Shown: positions 12,335 to 64,000, numbered from the stretch's first letter. The stretch: DNA of 64,000 nucleotides from Clostridiales bacterium (GCA_030446305.1 JASUSA010000001.1:1-64000); one strand, 5' to 3'. Translations and numbers: made by a program. Notes: generated by a model from the letters alone, not told the origin.

Positions 12335-12431
12335 GCTATGGTATCATAACCTTGCTATTCCTGTCTCGGGCATATGCTCAGAGCAGTATTTGTTTTTTTC
12401 ATACATTTTTCGTGCGATCTAAATCCAAATT

Positions 12432-12457
12432 GCGTATAGTCCATTAGGTACTATCGC
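12432..12457 (-). ncRNA. pan-motif RNA hairpin (candidate cis-regulatory leader of the pan operon)
   Basis: In the RNA, GCG-ATAGT-(A)-CC-TAAT-GG-ACTAT-(A)-CGC forms a ten-pair hairpin with two bulged adenosines, one on each strand. As I recall, the orphan pan RNA motif is exactly a stem-loop with two conserved bulged adenosines located in front of panB/C/D genes, often in tandem pairs. A second, weaker hairpin follows (CTGCTCTGAGCATATG...AGACAG, about 12361-12388). The position upstream of the pan operon and its terminator supports the call. Confidence 0.65.
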
Positions 12458-16255: not shown

Positions 16256-16302
16256 AAATTAAAAGCGGCTTAGACTATCGTCCAAACCGCTTACATTCAT
16301 TA
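16256..16302 (-). terminator. Terminator of the zinc-ribbon gene
   Basis: On the minus strand AAGCGG...GAC-gat-AGTC...CCGCTT is followed by TTTTAATTTT, just past the stop codon of the 52-residue ORF. Confidence 0.6.
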
Positions 16303-16650: not shown

Positions 16651-18321
16651 TTACTCGTTTAACCATTTAGAAAGGAACACATCCATTGAATCTGAACTGT
16701 AACCTCTTCGCCATGCAGCAATTCCAGGCAATTCATATGTTTCAACCAAGTTGAGTCTCGATTGCATTGATGTTTCGTCTTCAATCCATACACGATACTT
16801 TTTGTCATTTTCGTAATATTCAGCGTAATATTGTTCGGAAGCTGAATCCCATTGAATTTCCAACGATTTATCGTCTTTAAGCTGTGTCAGTCCATTCATG
16901 GTTATCGCTTTGGAACCCGTTTTCACGTACGTTCCTCTACTGTTCTTCGTTTCCTCCCATACACGCATATATTGTGGTACACCCAAGAGTATTTTTGACG
17001 CCGGAATTTCATTTAGCGTCATTTGAATGCTCTCCTCTGTCCAAGGCAATGAGGCAACGGGACCGCTTAGCGGGCTAGATCCCCAGAATTCATCATATGC
17101 CATCAGACATACATAATCTACAGATTGCCCTAAGCGAGTTCTGTCATAAACTTTGGACCACTGATCGCTGCCGCCAGGTCTCGTCACATCAATGCTCACT
17201 GTTAAATCAGCGGCCTGCAGCATCTCTGATGCATTTGCAATAAAGTCGGCAAATGCAGTCTGATCTTCTAGGTACATATTTTCGAAATCAAAATTGATGC
17301 CATCGAGTTCGTAAAAGGCACTGTAAAAAAGCAGCTGTGCAATGGCATAGCGTTGATCAATCTCGTTGGTCAGCAAATCATGCGTCCAGTCTGGGTCGAA
17401 ATTGTTCTTAACCAGCCCCCATACTTTCACACCATTTTCATGAGCCGATCTCACATAAGAAAGTTCTGCGCTGTTGATGAGTATGCCGTTGACATTTAGA
17501 TTAAACCAAGTTGGTGAAACAACGTTAATACCAGCTTCGAAAGGTGTTTTAAGCTTCGAAAAATTTTGGCTGAACTGTTCAATTGCTTCCCACGTCAAGC
17601 TGATCGGTTCATTGGATGAGGGTTTCACAGGATCATATGTCACTTGCGGTTCAAAGGCCACGGGTGTGGTCTGAACTTTCTCCTTAAGGTAAATCAAATG
17701 CCCTGTTGCATCCAGTGCTGATACATAGTCATTTGCACTGCTAAGCATATACACCGTTTCACTGACGCCTGCTTCACCATACCTTGCGAAACCATTCGGC
17801 AGCGCTTTATATTTTGTGACGCCCTGCTGGAGCATTCCTACGCCAACATTGGTCGTTTCATTATAAAGCAACAGGGCACCAGTCTCTTCAAAATACACAT
17901 AGCGGTATGCATAAAGCCGGCACAATGTCTCCAAAGAGAGATACGCTCGGTCTTCATTGTAAACAAGCGGCACGTTAATCGCGCTCATATTGTCTTCGAG
18001 ATATGCTCTAACCACTTCATTGTCTATATTAAACGCAATCTCAGACAAATCTACGTAAATACGCTGACCACTGTTTGACAGCGTTACCGTATCATCAATA
18101 TACTGCGTCAATAAATCTAGTGCGATATAATGCTGACCTTCATAATCCGTCAAGTACTCTGATCCAATTAACTGGTCATTTAAATAGACAGCATTGAGAT
18201 CTGCCTCATCATCAATAAGAGATGTCAGCAGCGATTGATAGCTTTGATTTAAAAAAAAGAGCTTTACACTGAGCCCAATAACACAAATGAGCAATATGGC
18301 AATGGCCAATTTGGATTTCAT
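16651..18321 (-). CDS. Exported glycoside hydrolase family 18 protein with copper-amine-oxidase-like N-domain
   Basis: A 556-residue protein. An N-terminal membrane anchor or signal segment (about 4-25) is followed by a region similar to the stalk domains called Cu_amine_oxidN (about 43-155). The GH18 barrel (about 260-555) has the catalytic DGINFDFE with the acid/base glutamate at residue 347, plus MAYDE and the terminal GIAAWRRGY strand. Close types are YdhD/SleL-like N-acetylglucosaminidases that act on peptidoglycan or the spore cortex. Function outside the membrane, on the wall, is inferred. A TATAAT at 18359-18364 may be its promoter, though the -35 box is poor. Confidence 0.87.
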   Translation of the reverse strand: MKSKLAIAILLICVIGLSVKLFFLNQSYQSLLTSLIDDEADLNAVYLNDQLIGSEYLTDYEGQHYIALDLLTQYIDDTVTLSNSGQRIYVDLSEIAFNIDNEVVRAYLEDNMSAINVPLVYNEDRAYLSLETLCRLYAYRYVYFEETGALLLYNETTNVGVGMLQQGVTKYKALPNGFARYGEAGVSETVYMLSSANDYVSALDATGHLIYLKEKVQTTPVAFEPQVTYDPVKPSSNEPISLTWEAIEQFSQNFSKLKTPFEAGINVVSPTWFNLNVNGILINSAELSYVRSAHENGVKVWGLVKNNFDPDWTHDLLTNEIDQRYAIAQLLFYSAFYELDGINFDFENMYLEDQTAFADFIANASEMLQAADLTVSIDVTRPGGSDQWSKVYDRTRLGQSVDYVCLMAYDEFWGSSPLSGPVASLPWTEESIQMTLNEIPASKILLGVPQYMRVWEETKNSRGTYVKTGSKAITMNGLTQLKDDKSLEIQWDSASEQYYAEYYENDKKYRVWIEDETSMQSRLNLVETYELPGIAAWRRGYSSDSMDVFLSKWLNE

Positions 18322-18477: not shown

Positions 18478-19116
18478 TTACAGGCAGCGAACAAATGCTG
18501 AATGCAAGGCCTCTGCCGTATCATACCGATCAGCCTGATTTAATGCCAGAGCTTTTGCAAGTACATTGAGATGATCCGGTTTAAAGGATTTCAACCTGCT
18601 CTCATAACAACGGTAAAACGTCTTAACGTATGCAAAGATGTCAGAAGTTTCATTGTATTTTTCAGGTTCAAAAAGTGCCTCAGGCGCTGCATATGCAATG
18701 GTTCCCACAATCGAATCCTGTGCTTCATGAGCTGTTGCACTGCCAAAGTCAATAAAGGATATACTGTCGGTTTCATCTACAAGCAAATGTCTTGGGCATA
18801 TATCGCGATGCAGAATATGCCGTTCATGCATCGCACTTAATACCTTTAACCCGTCTAAAAACAGCGCATCAAACGGCTGTTGACTTTGATTCAGCGGTAC
18901 GCCTTCTGCATACTGAATAAACAAATGCATGATTCCGTCTCCCACTTGATAGTCCATAAGTCTGGGAATACCGCGAATGCCATTTAATGCTTTTAAATTT
19001 TTTACTTCTTCAAGCCCGCGATGCAGCGGCAATATTTTTTTCACGCGCTTGGCACGTGTCATCTCATTTATTTCTACTGTGCAATTATCGCTCAGCACAC
19101 GCTCTTTTTCCCACAT
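18478..19116 (-). CDS. Minimal Hanks-type Ser/Thr protein kinase
   Basis: A 212-residue kinase domain with a shortened N-lobe. Catalytic-lobe motifs are complete: ILHRDICPRHLLV (HRD), SFIDFGSA (DFG) and YAAPEALFEPE (APE). The glycine-rich loop is absent, and the ATP lysine is not obvious (RAKRVKKI is the only candidate). No membrane, PASTA or sensor domain is present. The strong AGGAGG is 14 bases from the ATG, so the start could be wrong. It is the last gene of the pseudopilin cluster and might phosphorylate one of those proteins; that is inference. Confidence 0.8.
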   Translation of the reverse strand: MWEKERVLSDNCTVEINEMTRAKRVKKILPLHRGLEEVKNLKALNGIRGIPRLMDYQVGDGIMHLFIQYAEGVPLNQSQQPFDALFLDGLKVLSAMHERHILHRDICPRHLLVDETDSISFIDFGSATAHEAQDSIVGTIAYAAPEALFEPEKYNETSDIFAYVKTFYRCYESRLKSFKPDHLNVLAKALALNQADRYDTAEALHSAFVRCL

Positions 19117-19191
19117 CCTTATAACTTGCCTCCTTTGGCCTCATATATTTTTACTGCATTGGTTCACCGATGATTCAATAGCCATCACCCA

Positions 19192-19800
19192 TTATTGCGA
19201 TGGCGGCCGACAGTGACTGCATGGTCTATAGCCATCCGCTTTCGCCTTTTCAAGTGTCGTCTTAATCTTACTAAGCCTTAAATGATAGCAGCTTCCGGTA
19301 TGATAACATTCTCCCGTTCGTGTAATGTAGACGATGGTACTCTTAGGCTTAATCGTATCACCTGACAAAGCAGCGGATACCGGTACTGAAAACTGCTTTC
19401 TCATAACATTCAGCGGCAGGTTTATATCATATGTAAGGGTCCATACAAAGATGCCCTCATTGTCTAAACTGCTTCCGGCGCTGCTGTAAGCCGATACAAG
19501 CTCCAAATCATCGCATTTGCTCTTAATGCGCTGTGTCCCCCATGCTGCCAGCATCAAACGATTGACCTCTCTTACAGGCAACTCATTTGAAGTTAATGTC
19601 GCAGACATAATAACGGACATTTCTTTTGAAATCGTCTGCATTTCACCAACAACACGTGTTTCGACAAACAGACTATAGACAAACCCTATGGCTGTAAACG
19701 TGATGAGCATCGTAACCGTCATCACAATAAGGCTCTCAATGGCAATACTGCCTCGTCGCCTGCACTTTTTATCTCTCTGTTTTAACAAAGCCCTATTCAT
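19192..19800 (-). CDS. Pseudopilin-like protein with C-terminal cysteine/histidine metal-binding motif
   Basis: A 202-residue protein. A basic N-terminus (KKCRRRGSIAIESLIV) and one hydrophobic helix (about 20-45) give a TadE/TadF-like prepilin shape. The extracytoplasmic part ends with TRTGECYHTGSCYHLR...GYRPCSHCRPP, the YHxxxC plus CxxC pattern resembling an Ada-type zinc site seen at the ends of various clostridial surface proteins. It overlaps the upstream TadG-like gene by 8 bp. The combination of a pilin-like anchor and this metal motif is unusual. Confidence 0.7.
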   Translation of the reverse strand: MNRALLKQRDKKCRRRGSIAIESLIVMTVTMLITFTAIGFVYSLFVETRVVGEMQTISKEMSVIMSATLTSNELPVREVNRLMLAAWGTQRIKSKCDDLELVSAYSSAGSSLDNEGIFVWTLTYDINLPLNVMRKQFSVPVSAALSGDTIKPKSTIVYITRTGECYHTGSCYHLRLSKIKTTLEKAKADGYRPCSHCRPPSQ

Positions 19801-21643
19801 AATGACGCTCCGTCGTCATAATCACTTGATGATCCAGCGTGATCTCCACTTGGTGCCCAACAGCATAGTTTGAAAGCGGTGTGCTAATGTTGGCCTCCAG
19901 AATTGTCTGCAGATAGGCCAGCGTTTCGTCTACCGGCTGCCAAAACAACAATAATCTTAAGTAGTCTTGATAGTACAAATCCGTATCCAGTATATTATTC
20001 GTCTGCGTATGACTGCCTGTAGCATTGGCACCTGTCGCATTGCCACCTGTCGCATTGGCGCTGGCTGCTGCAGAAATATCTTCAACAGTCGATGTCATCA
20101 GCCTTGTTGAGCTCAATTCAAAATCTGCATACGTCTTAACAAGCGGCAGCCCCTTGCCATTATGAAGTGACTTTATATCAAAAATTGATTCGCCAACGCT
20201 CCACGCTGTTACCAGAGCACCTTGGGCAAGTACCTGAAAAGGCATTGGAATGGCAACGGTCACACTGACCACCTGCTGTCTTGCCGTAGCATCTGTCAAC
20301 AATGTCATGGCATTGCTCAATGTTCTCAATGCGAGAATCTTGCCGTCAACAATGGTTTGATTTAATTGATCATCTGTTGTATGCCCGATCAAATACTCAA
20401 CTTCACCTTTATAAACACCTTCTCTATCTGATTTCGTCCCGGGAAAATCAAAATTACGCACGGTTCCAGGATCTTTGCTCTTCAGTACACCTAGGCAATA
20501 TTCATTGATAATCATTTTTTCATCCAGACCAATGGCAATTTGCTTAAAGGCTTCTCTTTTAAGTTTCACCTCATCACGCTCTGAACCGCTTATCATGCCA
20601 ACTGTACTTTCATAATATGTGGATAATGACGCTTTAATTGACTTTAATTTATCCCAGGCACTACTTGATTCACTTGCATATGTATTGCTAAAAGTTTCTG
20701 CCTCTGCCGAAAACTGTCTTTGAAGCCTTTTCAGCCTTTCTTCCAATCGATCGATGTCATCCTTTAAATCCTTTTTATCTTCTTTTAATGCTTTAATCGC
20801 CTCACTAATGGCCGGCTTTTCTGATACTTTTGCATTATCACGTCTTTCTTTTAATTTATCAATCCGATCATCAAGCGTATCCACATCATCTTCTAAGTCA
20901 TCAATATCCTCTTCTATTTTTTTCATATCTGAAATGCTTTCCGATCCTTTTTCTATAAACACTTGAAGTTCTTGTGCAAGGGCTATCGAAGCTGCAACAT
21001 CTTGATCATAGGCATTTTGATCTTCAAATGTCGGACGCGCATCATCAATCACCTGCTTCAGCGCTTGTTTTGCATTTGACAAGTCATCGAGCTGACCTGT
21101 AATCGCAGCAGACGACATGCCGACACAATCGCGCAAATCATTTAACTTATCCGCAACCTTATAACGCTCAAACGTATCAAGAAATTTTTCATTTACTTTT
21201 TTAACGGATTCAAATCGCTGGTAAACACCCTCATTTGCCATTTTTTTATCTGCCCAACTTAAAGCCAGGTCAATCGCCTCAGATACGCCTTCTGCGGAAC
21301 CTGCCAGCAATATCGCTGATTTAAAATATTCAGGTTTTGAGAGCGTTTCATATGAGACATTGTAATAGACGCGATCCTTGTAACCATTTCGGACGATAAG
21401 CTTATTAAAGAGATCATGCATTTGATCACTCTTTTCATAAGCTAAAATACGATAATCATCATAGAGAACGTTGCTGAACCTCGCCAATCGCACCTCCGAG
21501 ACTTCAACACCCGTTATAATCGCATTATTCTCAAGCTTTCGCTCTTCCAGCTGCTGATAAATCATAAAAATACCAAACAAAATAACTGGCACGACGATAA
21601 CGGCAAAAATAGAAACACTGCCACGTGATGCGCGATTCAGCAT
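19793..21643 (-). CDS. TadG-like (DUF5702-type) surface protein with long coiled coil
   Basis: A 616-residue protein with an N-terminal hydrophobic helix (about 10-30) typical of Tad pseudopilins (SRGSVSIFAVIVVPVILFG). A charged coiled coil follows (about 225-320, rich in DDIDDLEDDVDTLDDRIDKL). Near residue 535 a low-complexity NATG repeat occurs three times, encoded by 15-bp DNA repeats. I chose the ATG at 21643, with AGGAGG eight bases upstream, rather than the GTG that overlaps this site. It starts just past the TadE-like stop. It is probably a structural or assembly part of a surface fibre; no other Tad machinery is in the window. Confidence 0.72.
   Translation of the reverse strand: MLNRASRGSVSIFAVIVVPVILFGIFMIYQQLEERKLENNAIITGVEVSEVRLARFSNVLYDDYRILAYEKSDQMHDLFNKLIVRNGYKDRVYYNVSYETLSKPEYFKSAILLAGSAEGVSEAIDLALSWADKKMANEGVYQRFESVKKVNEKFLDTFERYKVADKLNDLRDCVGMSSAAITGQLDDLSNAKQALKQVIDDARPTFEDQNAYDQDVAASIALAQELQVFIEKGSESISDMKKIEEDIDDLEDDVDTLDDRIDKLKERRDNAKVSEKPAISEAIKALKEDKKDLKDDIDRLEERLKRLQRQFSAEAETFSNTYASESSSAWDKLKSIKASLSTYYESTVGMISGSERDEVKLKREAFKQIAIGLDEKMIINEYCLGVLKSKDPGTVRNFDFPGTKSDREGVYKGEVEYLIGHTTDDQLNQTIVDGKILALRTLSNAMTLLTDATARQQVVSVTVAIPMPFQVLAQGALVTAWSVGESIFDIKSLHNGKGLPLVKTYADFELSSTRLMTSTVEDISAAASANATGGNATGANATGSHTQTNNILDTDLYYQDYLRLLLFWQPVDETLAYLQTILEANISTPLSNYAVGHQVEITLDHQVIMTTERHYE
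20018..20066. repeat. Tandem 15-bp repeat inside the TadG-like gene
   Basis: Three near-identical units of GCATTGGCACCTGTC encode the ANATG/GNATG low-complexity stretch. The repeat keeps the reading frame. Confidence 0.6.
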
Positions 21644-21648
21644 TTCTG

Positions 21649-22053
21649 TCACCTCCTGAACAAATTAGCCGCTTCATTAACATACTGTTTAAGCAAAAGC
21701 ATACGTCTATAGTTAAATTTATAATCACGACGTTCAAGTTCTACCTCAGCTAATTCCTCCCCCAGTGCTGTATTAATCCCATTTTCAATGGTAAATGTCT
21801 CATGGCTCTTGTAACGTTTCAGCAAACCAAGATTATTCACTTCGATATCGGCTATAAGCCCACTGCCGTTTTGCGGCACGGATACATTGCCATTGCCCGG
21901 TAAAGGGGGCACGCCGTTCACAGTTTCCAAAAAGCTATTTTCCATTTCAATTGCAGCATAGGTCTCCATTGCAATATCAATAAAAAAGCCTAAGATGCCC
22001 AATAACAGAATAAAGACAACCGTAAAGGCAATTGTCGTTTCAAGTGTTAGCAT
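21649..22053 (-). CDS. TadE-like pseudopilin
   Basis: A 134-residue protein with an N-terminal hydrophobic helix beginning at once after the start (LTLETTIAFTVVFILLLGILGFF) and a glutamate near the cleavage-type position, as in TadE-like pseudopilins. The ATG at 22053, five bases after GGAGG, was chosen over the track's TTG. Its stop TGA lies inside the ribosome binding site of the TadG-like gene. It is the first gene of a four-gene unit with the TadG-like protein, the Cys/His pseudopilin and the kinase. Confidence 0.72.
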   Translation of the reverse strand: MLTLETTIAFTVVFILLLGILGFFIDIAMETYAAIEMENSFLETVNGVPPLPGNGNVSVPQNGSGLIADIEVNNLGLLKRYKSHETFTIENGINTALGEELAEVELERRDYKFNYRRMLLLKQYVNEAANLFRR

Positions 22054-22227
22054 GAATACCTCCAAGATTTAATTTAACATATTTGTTATATTTTTACATT
22101 TTAGCATAAAAAAATGAACCCCACAACTGTTAATCGTCATCATTTGTCATGAATTATCATCATTTGATGTCCACTATAATTGATTAATCATTCGTCATTG
22201 GGATCATTGTCAAATTTGAGGCTTTCG

Positions 22228-23616
22228 TTATGCATTTTTATCCAAGCCATATTTATGTCTTTTACGTGTAATCGTCGATGGGTCAACCTTTAATATTTCT
22301 GAAGCTTCGCCAAGGCCATACTGTGAAAGAACAAAAGCCAGTAACGCTTTTTCATAATTTTCAACAGATGTTTTCAAAGAAAAATCACTGGCTTTAAAAG
22401 TGTCTTCATTGAATAAATGATTTTCATTAACCTGTCGTGCGCTTTCATGCAAAAATAATTCTGGGAAATAAACAAACTCCAACTTTTCATTATCACTCAT
22501 GATGACAAGGCGTTCAATAAAGTTCTTAAGCTCTCGCACATTACCAGGCCAGTGATATGCCGTTAAATCTTTGTATGCCGTAGGGGTTAGTAATTTAATT
22601 TTATCGTATCGCTTACAAAACATTGCCAGAAAATATTTGCTGAGTATGCGAATATCTTCAGGTCTTTCCCACAGTGGCGAAATTGTCAGCGGCAAGACGT
22701 TAATACGATAATAGAGATCTGCTCTAAATGTTTTCTCCGCCACCTTATGTTCCAAGACAGCATTCGTTGCCGTAATCAGTCGAAATCTTATCTCACGCGA
22801 TTTCAATGCCCCAATGCGCTGTACCTTTTTTTCTTCAAGCACTTTCAGCAGTTTCCCCTGCAAATTTAATGAAAGGGAATCTATCTCGTCGAGAAAGAGC
22901 GTTCCATTCTCTGCCGTTTCAATCAAACCAGGCTTTCCCGTTGCCAGCGCACCTGTAAATGCCCCTTTTTCATAGCCAAACAGCATTGATTCAAGCAGCG
23001 TCTCTGGGAATGCTGCACAATTGACTTCAACGAGTTCATGACTGCCAAAGCGACTCTCATTGTGAATATATCGCGCCAAAACACTTTTACCCGTTCCGGA
23101 TTCTCCTGTAATGAGTACTGCCGTATCAACTTTCGAGACGCGCTTTGCCTGTGCAATGAGCCGTTTCATTGATGCACTCTCATAAATCAAATCCGGTGAT
23201 TTATCACCTATTTGTTTAAGCTCTCGGTCTGTACTTTCGCCTTCCATCCAGACGCTCATCAACAGTTCCTGCAAATGCCCCATGATCATGGACATAACAT
23301 AAAGAACGTCGCCATTTTCATCCAAAATAGGTGATGAGAAGCCAATGATTTTGTGCGCTTTCCCTTCATCCGTATAATAAGTATTTGACAAAAATGCAGG
23401 CTTTTTGCTTTCTCTTACGCTTTTTGTAATATTGCGTTTAATCAATCCTTCCCGATACATTTCATCAAAGTTCAGCACCATAAATGCCGCTCTCTCCATA
23501 TCTACTAAATCCAGCATTGACTGATTTACATAGGTTACAGAGCCATTTTTATCTGTTACAAAGATGCCGAACACCATGTTGTCCAGCATCATTTCATATA
23601 GTGCTGCATCACTCAT
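22228..23616 (-). CDS. Sigma-54-dependent transcriptional activator (PAS-AAA+-HTH)
   Basis: A 462-residue enhancer-binding protein. A PAS domain (about 8-110) senses an unknown signal. The AAA+ domain (about 150-380) has Walker A GESGTGKS, the sigma-54 contact loop KGAFTGA, and the FLDEIDSL Walker B. The C-terminus has a Fis-like helix-turn-helix (LGEASEILKVDPSTITRKRHKYGL). The start was moved to the ATG at 23616 because GGGGG lies eight bases upstream. The adjacent upstream gene is an amidohydrolase with a sigma-54-type promoter and TGCA palindromes, so that gene is the likely target. Confidence 0.9.
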   Translation of the reverse strand: MSDAALYEMMLDNMVFGIFVTDKNGSVTYVNQSMLDLVDMERAAFMVLNFDEMYREGLIKRNITKSVRESKKPAFLSNTYYTDEGKAHKIIGFSSPILDENGDVLYVMSMIMGHLQELLMSVWMEGESTDRELKQIGDKSPDLIYESASMKRLIAQAKRVSKVDTAVLITGESGTGKSVLARYIHNESRFGSHELVEVNCAAFPETLLESMLFGYEKGAFTGALATGKPGLIETAENGTLFLDEIDSLSLNLQGKLLKVLEEKKVQRIGALKSREIRFRLITATNAVLEHKVAEKTFRADLYYRINVLPLTISPLWERPEDIRILSKYFLAMFCKRYDKIKLLTPTAYKDLTAYHWPGNVRELKNFIERLVIMSDNEKLEFVYFPELFLHESARQVNENHLFNEDTFKASDFSLKTSVENYEKALLAFVLSQYGLGEASEILKVDPSTITRKRHKYGLDKNA

Positions 23617-23719
23617 CGAATTTCCCCCTTTACATGCATACAGCATAAACGCCTATGTGCCAAATCACCATTTTTAAATCCATTAACGGCATCTCGAACA
23701 CGCTTTTAGCGCTTATTAT

Positions 23720-63911: not shown

Positions 63912-64000
63912 TTCTCATCAGCGGATGCGGTACGTCATCGCAGAAAAATCTTTCGTCCGTCGGCAACCTCCCATCCGACGGCACTTAACGCGTCGTACCT
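63912..64000 (-). ncRNA. THF (tetrahydrofolate) riboswitch, left end possibly cut by the window
   Basis: In RNA sense: GGTAC...CGCGTTAAGTG...GGATGGGA...ACGAA...GTACCGCATCCGCT. CGTTAAGTG, the GGAUG element and GCATCCGCT are hallmarks of the folT/THF riboswitch, and GTGCCGTCGG...CCGACGG forms the central helix. It sits in front of folT, the classic target in Clostridia. The 5' strand of the closing helix is at or beyond the window edge. Confidence 0.88.

Follow-up and report, generated by a model that had tools for sequence, protein, structure and literature searches.

The tip of type 4 filaments is capped by a pilin that lacks the glutamate at position 5 of the mature protein (Glu5) (PMC10191384), and the Kil Tad pilus of Myxococcus has tip complexes of three pilins (PMC12075869). 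Sets of a DUF6382-FHA protein and a kinase are found in type VII secretion system (T7SS) variants of Bacillota, some of which adjoin Tad genes (PMC11217815). Here we analyze a gene cluster at positions 18,478 to 22,053 of a 64,000-nucleotide stretch of DNA from a Clostridiales bacterium (GCA_030446305.1, JASUSA010000001.1:1-64000; the whole stretch is called the window below), which encodes three pilin-like proteins and a short kinase. This cluster is probably a tip cassette, encoding the minor pilins of a Tad/type IVc pilus, the motor genes of which (TadZ-A-B-C-Flp-FHA) are located elsewhere in the chromosome.

Like the Tad/type IVc pilus, this system has a TadA ATPase, two platform proteins, an Flp1-like pilin (G/MGTIE, where a slash marks the leader/mature junction here and below), TadE-type minor pilins and a TadZ-like protein. 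It differs in that its motor and tip halves are split, no TadV is present in the locus, one TadE protein (TadE1) has no leader, TadC has a single membrane helix, DUF5702 replaces the TadG-type proteins, and a kinase and an FHA protein have been added. The system is Tad-like by its motor, platform and pilin, with the absence of TadV as a variant feature. The preliminary description of this DNA had placed three pilin-like proteins and a kinase in one cluster, and four tightly packed genes are indeed found there:

21649..22053, minus strand: TadE1, a leaderless TadE-type minor pilin (M1-L-T-L-E5), 134 amino acids from its ATG.
22054..22063, minus strand: Shine-Dalgarno GGAGG plus a 5-base spacer, which fixes the TadE1 start codon (read from the sequence).
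19793..21652, minus strand: DUF5702 large minor pilin with a GTG start and no Glu5, a predicted tip subunit (PF18960, E 4.9e-27; N-termini).
19192..19800, minus strand: TadE2, a TadE/F-type minor pilin with a C-terminal H-C-C-C metal-binding-like module (alignment).
19207..19332, minus strand: the TadE2 C-terminal Ada-zinc-like module, VYITRTGECYHxxxCYH...PCSHC (weak PF02805, alignments).
18478..19116, minus strand: short Hanks-type kinase (Pfam Pkinase, E 3.4e-18; alignments).

TadE1 and DUF5702 overlap by 4 bases and DUF5702 and TadE2 by 8, while 75 bases separate TadE2 from the kinase. TadE1 and TadE2 match no Pfam family above threshold. When compared with Fusibacter paucivorans, the four genes contain no stops and have ratios of nonsynonymous to synonymous substitution (dN/dS) of 0.06-0.14 (TadE1 0.135; kinase 0.060), and this purifying selection, together with the lack of stops, indicates that they are real genes. 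Homology searches found no TadABC, prepilin peptidase or Flp within the window, in agreement with the preliminary description.

The motor half was found in the same genome, which belongs to a Fusibacter relative near F. paucivorans. Among the genomes compared, F. paucivorans DSM 12116 is G001, Fusibacter sp. 3D3 is G017, F. ferrireducens is G029, F. tunisiensis is G031 and F. bizertensis is G062. A T2SSE search detected TadA (PF00437, 173 bits) on contig C55, where the gene order is TadZ-like, TadA, TadB, TadC, Flp and FHA protein; Pfam matches to the proteins of this contig are Flp1_like (PF16982), T2SSF and DUF6382 plus FHA. TadB and TadC are both present, TadC having 176 amino acids and one predicted membrane helix, and the Flp protein is the major pilin, with the junction DERG/MGTIE. 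The window copy of DUF5702 is the only one in the genome. The preliminary description had considered that a complete tad operon might lie directly beyond a contig break; instead, the C55 motor genes are in the interior of a 31 kb contig and the window is part of a 181 kb contig. TadV, the dedicated peptidase, is not in the Tad locus of this approximately 91% complete genome, and the single A24 prepilin peptidase found is PilD, in a PilB-PilT-PilC-PilD type IV pilus operon on contig C52. Several relatives have a second Tad locus, typically with an Flp containing QGMVEYAL (L067, L070, L072, L074, L077, L080, L083); a search of the genome of the window yielded none.

The split between tip and motor is old and common to the family. 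DUF5702, which marks the pseudopilin half, is present in 40 of the 41 family genomes. For wide searches a narrow DUF5702 alignment served as the query, the first one being insufficiently conserved. The tip cassette is contiguous with the motor in three of the family genomes (G005, G011 and G013), and nearly all other members have the tip and TadA cassettes on separate contigs; in the closed genome G014 the halves are at 0.94 and 2.19 Mb, 1.25 Mb apart. The contiguous order, TadA-B-C-Flp-(TadE)-DUF5702-TadE2, is shared by these three genomes, two genomes of other families (G037 and G056) and Butyrivibrio. FHA comes next after TadE2 in the three genomes and in Butyrivibrio, the G037 contig ending at that point, and the kinase follows FHA in the three; the order occurs without a kinase in the other families and Butyrivibrio. 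In split genomes the FHA gene remains with the motor and the kinase with the tip cassette. The clade with leaderless TadE1 is recovered in both the DUF5702 plus TadE2 tree (support 100/99, all 16 genomes) and the TadA tree (support 99, 13 sampled).

The preliminary description had left open two readings, part of a larger split locus or a small stand-alone surface system, and these data bear out the first. A motor is missing from the window and, in most family genomes, from the surroundings of the cassette, which would suit a motor-free system in which three pilin-like proteins are anchored in the membrane and do not polymerize. We consider this very unlikely, given that every adequately covered genome with the tip cassette, the window's own included, also has the TadA half, that contiguous loci of the ancestral type exist, that Glu5 and leaders are retained in TadE2 and Flp, and that the tip and motor trees agree. 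The split locus, the shortened TadC and the degraded kinase features described below might also be taken for the remnant of a decaying, functionless Tad locus. To this we give almost no credence: all genes of both halves are under purifying selection (dN/dS 0.02-0.19), their frames are intact and their order is conserved.

TadE1 begins where its mature form would begin. In the window the start reads GGAGG-TATTC-ATG CTA ACA CTT GAA, giving M1-L-T-L-E5 followed by a hydrophobic stretch; the start codon occupies the position of mature residue 1, an in-frame stop lies 6 codons 5' of it, residue -1 would be Phe, and no codons are left for a leader. The missing leader was unreported in the preliminary description, though the coordinates given there begin at the right codon. 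In F. paucivorans the Shine-Dalgarno sequence is conserved and the spacer has diverged. Relatives with a leader have ...KG/SLTVE, ...RG/STTVE and the like, with Glu at +5. The M1-x-x-x-E5 start is present in 14 genomes, with ATG, GTG or TTG as start codon (MLTLE, MVSLE, MVTTE, (GTG)FTTE, MLTTE, MFTTE, MFSTE, MLTSE and MISIE; (TTG)NALE in F. bizertensis), and G010 and G015 have M1-x-x-E4. Most leaderless TadE1 genes have a clear Shine-Dalgarno-like sequence 4-9 bases 5' of the start, that of G019 being weak. Because mean pairwise identity among ten lineages of leaderless TadE1 is 19%, the fixed spacing from M1 to E5 does not simply reflect recent descent. Profile alignment of leaderless against leadered TadE1 pairs column 1 with column 1, placing M1 at mature +1 (E 3e-7). 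The same genomes keep leaders on TadE2, DUF5702 and Flp, so among these proteins only TadE1 has lost its leader. We looked for a TadE1 leader supplied from an upstream in-frame start, where the alternatives have neither Gly/Ala at -1 nor a proper leader, and for one supplied by frameshift, where start-led tails in the other frames are absent from the window and most relatives; both were rejected. All leaderless cases trace to one ancestral event.

The same clade has an altered platform. In all 12 readable members of the leaderless clade one membrane helix is predicted for TadC, versus at least three in 12 others. In the window's genome the gap between TadB and TadC is 15 bases, so the shortening is not due to a wrong start call. 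In this TadC (contig C55, L011:4968-5498) and those of 11 relatives about 100 residues are missing at the N-terminus, and one membrane helix is left.

We put at about an even chance the proposal that TadE1 is already mature when translated and joins the pilus with no need of prepilin peptidase, in a clade that has lost the N-terminal helices of TadC. It is possible, though unlikely, that TadE1 has instead left the filament and become a membrane protein with one helix, such as an adaptor in platform assembly, with TadE2 and DUF5702 forming the tip. In favor of this, the TadC of this clade is down to one helix, so that TadE1 could be a platform component, and pilins do not usually carry an initiator Met at the membrane face. 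However, Glu5 is kept at a constant distance from the start in the 14 genomes despite their low identity, which would be needless in a plain anchor; the E4 of G010 and G015 weakens this point slightly. In the open-access literature, to which our search extended, we found no prior description of DUF5702, of leaderless pilins, or of a Tad system with FHA and kinase; subscription papers lay outside this search.

The other two pilin-like proteins keep a Gly before the helix, the leader junctions being SRG/SVSIFA in DUF5702 and RRRG/SIAIES in TadE2. DUF5702 lacks Glu5 in 43 of 43 genomes, mostly having Phe there (the G017 and G023 rows were placed at an alternative register by the script). In TadE2 the only columns invariant among 20 relatives are E22 (Glu5), H167, C171, C194 and C197. 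The Ada-zinc-like H-C-C-C module to which the last four belong is the most conserved part of TadE2 across the order and is present as two tandem copies in L062 and L063; its match to PF02805 is weak (E 4.5e-4, below the cut-off). Predicted structures are of moderate quality, with a pLDDT (model confidence score) of 74 for TadE2 and of 77 for the AlphaFold2 model of DUF5702. A GspK-like fold for DUF5702 was sought and had no structural match. With a sub-threshold Pfam hit and no fold match, we make no claim of a DNA-binding tip formed by the Ada-like tail of TadE2.

By analogy, a short pilin with Glu5, a large pilin without it and a C-terminally extended pilin would fit the logic of a tip complex. 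The Kil tip of Myxococcus (KilL/KilM/KilN; PMC12075869) likewise has a short, a large and a C-terminally extended minor pilin, and Kil tips are also encoded in more than one cluster, a comparison made by composition of the pilin set. All Kil tip pilins have predicted peptidase sites, unlike the set described here, and there are four Kil tip sets versus one here. The GspK/PilK-type tips of type II secretion systems and type IV pili (PMC10191384) similarly place a large minor pilin without Glu5 beside smaller ones that have it; as the DUF5702 model has no fold match, that likeness is one of analogy only.

The kinase and the FHA protein of the motor half appear to belong together. The kinase is canonical in the contiguous loci of G005 and G011 and shorter in split loci. 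Aligned with other kinases, the window kinase keeps the catalytic Lys, the helix-C Glu, the HRD Asp, DFG and APE; it and that of F. paucivorans have no Gly-rich loop and read HRDICPRH, the catalytic-loop Asn being replaced by His. G010, G015 and F. tunisiensis (G031) have lost the HRD Asp, and in the last of these the FHA pocket is degraded as well (IGS, ESMH, NKL); the pocket residues of the C55 FHA protein are intact (IGR, STHH, KNGT). Neither kinase nor FHA was found in a reduced-genome clade of 12 genomes forming one branch (100/100), of which 8 motor contigs were seen, 2 of them ending soon after Flp, and in G056 no kinase is present in the region and no FHA domain was found. The shared loss or degradation of both supports the DUF6382-FHA protein as the natural partner of the kinase in a functional pair, the joint events being few, about three for and one against. 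A side observation concerns the kinases of contiguous loci (L049:13552-14982, L060:11993-13459), which have an extra C-terminal domain, TadZ/CpaE-like by eye, that carries a P-loop-like GVIGMTSGCGTTH; this part has no Pfam match in the L049 copy, nor in G011.

DUF6382 plus FHA and a Hanks-type kinase are likewise encoded with an export machine where threonine phosphorylation controls type VI secretion systems (T6SS) and in the T7SS sets (PMC11217815). Unlike those of T6SS and T7SS, the pair here is part of a Tad pilus and is divided between two loci; its short kinase is apparently soluble and has partly degraded. Control by phosphorylation, as put forward in the preliminary description, is plausible from the presence of an FHA partner in the motor half and the joint fate of the two genes; the activity of the window kinase itself is doubtful, since it lacks the Gly-rich loop and the catalytic-loop Asn. 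Somewhat short of an even chance, in our estimate, is that it acts as a pseudokinase scaffold and that FHA reads phosphothreonine placed by another kinase, such as that of a 664-codon open frame on contig C51. The absent Gly-rich loop, the substituted Asn, the lost HRD Asp of three relatives and the presence of other kinases in the genome all point this way, as does G008, which retains FHA without a cassette kinase. Against it, the window kinase has its main catalytic residues intact and the low dN/dS given above, and the joint loss of the HRD Asp and the FHA pocket in F. tunisiensis suggests direct pairing.

Under the tip-cassette interpretation, Flp, DUF5702 and TadE2 would be cut in trans by a peptidase, probably PilD of the type IV pilus operon, while TadE1 would remain uncut, its translation product already being the mature form, which starts with Met and has Glu5. 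TadE1, TadE2 and the Glu5-less DUF5702 would form a priming and tip complex on which TadA, TadB and TadC would polymerize Flp, leaving the metal-binding-like tail of TadE2 and the head of DUF5702 as the exposed functional parts. The kinase, or a pseudokinase form of it, may signal to the DUF6382-FHA protein of the motor half and so set the timing of pilus production.

Several points weigh against this account. No solved structure in the PDB matches the AlphaFold model of TadE2 or that of DUF5702, so the tip roles depend on sequence logic and analogy. Because the leaderless cases share a single event, the TadC change adds no independent evidence. The kinase of the window may lack activity, and G008, with an intact FHA and no cassette kinase, is one clear exception to the joint loss. 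Given the completeness of the genome, a Tad-specific peptidase could have been missed.

Three further features flank the cluster:

16651..18321, minus strand: membrane-anchored GH18 glycosidase, possibly in the unit (PF00704, synteny).
16263..16292, minus strand: terminator-like hairpin 3' of GH18, candidate end of the unit (consensus scan).
22228..23646, minus strand: PAS sigma-54 activator, upstream, a possible regulator (Pfam, synteny).

The transcription unit probably extends through GH18 to the hairpin and T-run at 16263-16292, the first long-stemmed hairpin of terminator type 3' of GH18 (identified by match to a consensus, the scan giving 8 terminator-like sites versus a mean of 6.1 in shuffles). 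GH18 often adjoins the tip cassette in relatives and has a membrane-anchored, stalk-like N-terminal region; it may cut a passage through peptidoglycan for the pilus, or simply lie next to the cassette. Among close relatives, only F. paucivorans has the PAS sigma-54 activator at this position 5' of TadE1. A sigma-54 promoter for the cassette under this activator was rejected, no above-chance site being present near TadE1. The window also contains two ordinary Rfam matches, a pan motif at 12357-12457 (38.9 bits) and a THF riboswitch at 63917-64000 (60.5 bits), truncated at the window end.

By itself, a probable tip half from a Tad pilus that was split long ago would be a modest result, and the leaderless TadE1 and short TadC are the parts for specialists. 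If the proposal for TadE1 is true, a leader is needed for neither targeting nor assembly of this subunit, which breaks the rule that minor pilins are functional solely after peptidase processing and provides a natural case in which to test the purpose of the peptidase and of the contact between Glu5 and the N-terminal amine. The split locus means that tip and motor are heritable as separate cassettes, and the series of kinase and FHA forms, from canonical through degraded to absent, is a natural basis for comparisons of how phosphorylation controls a Gram-positive pilus.

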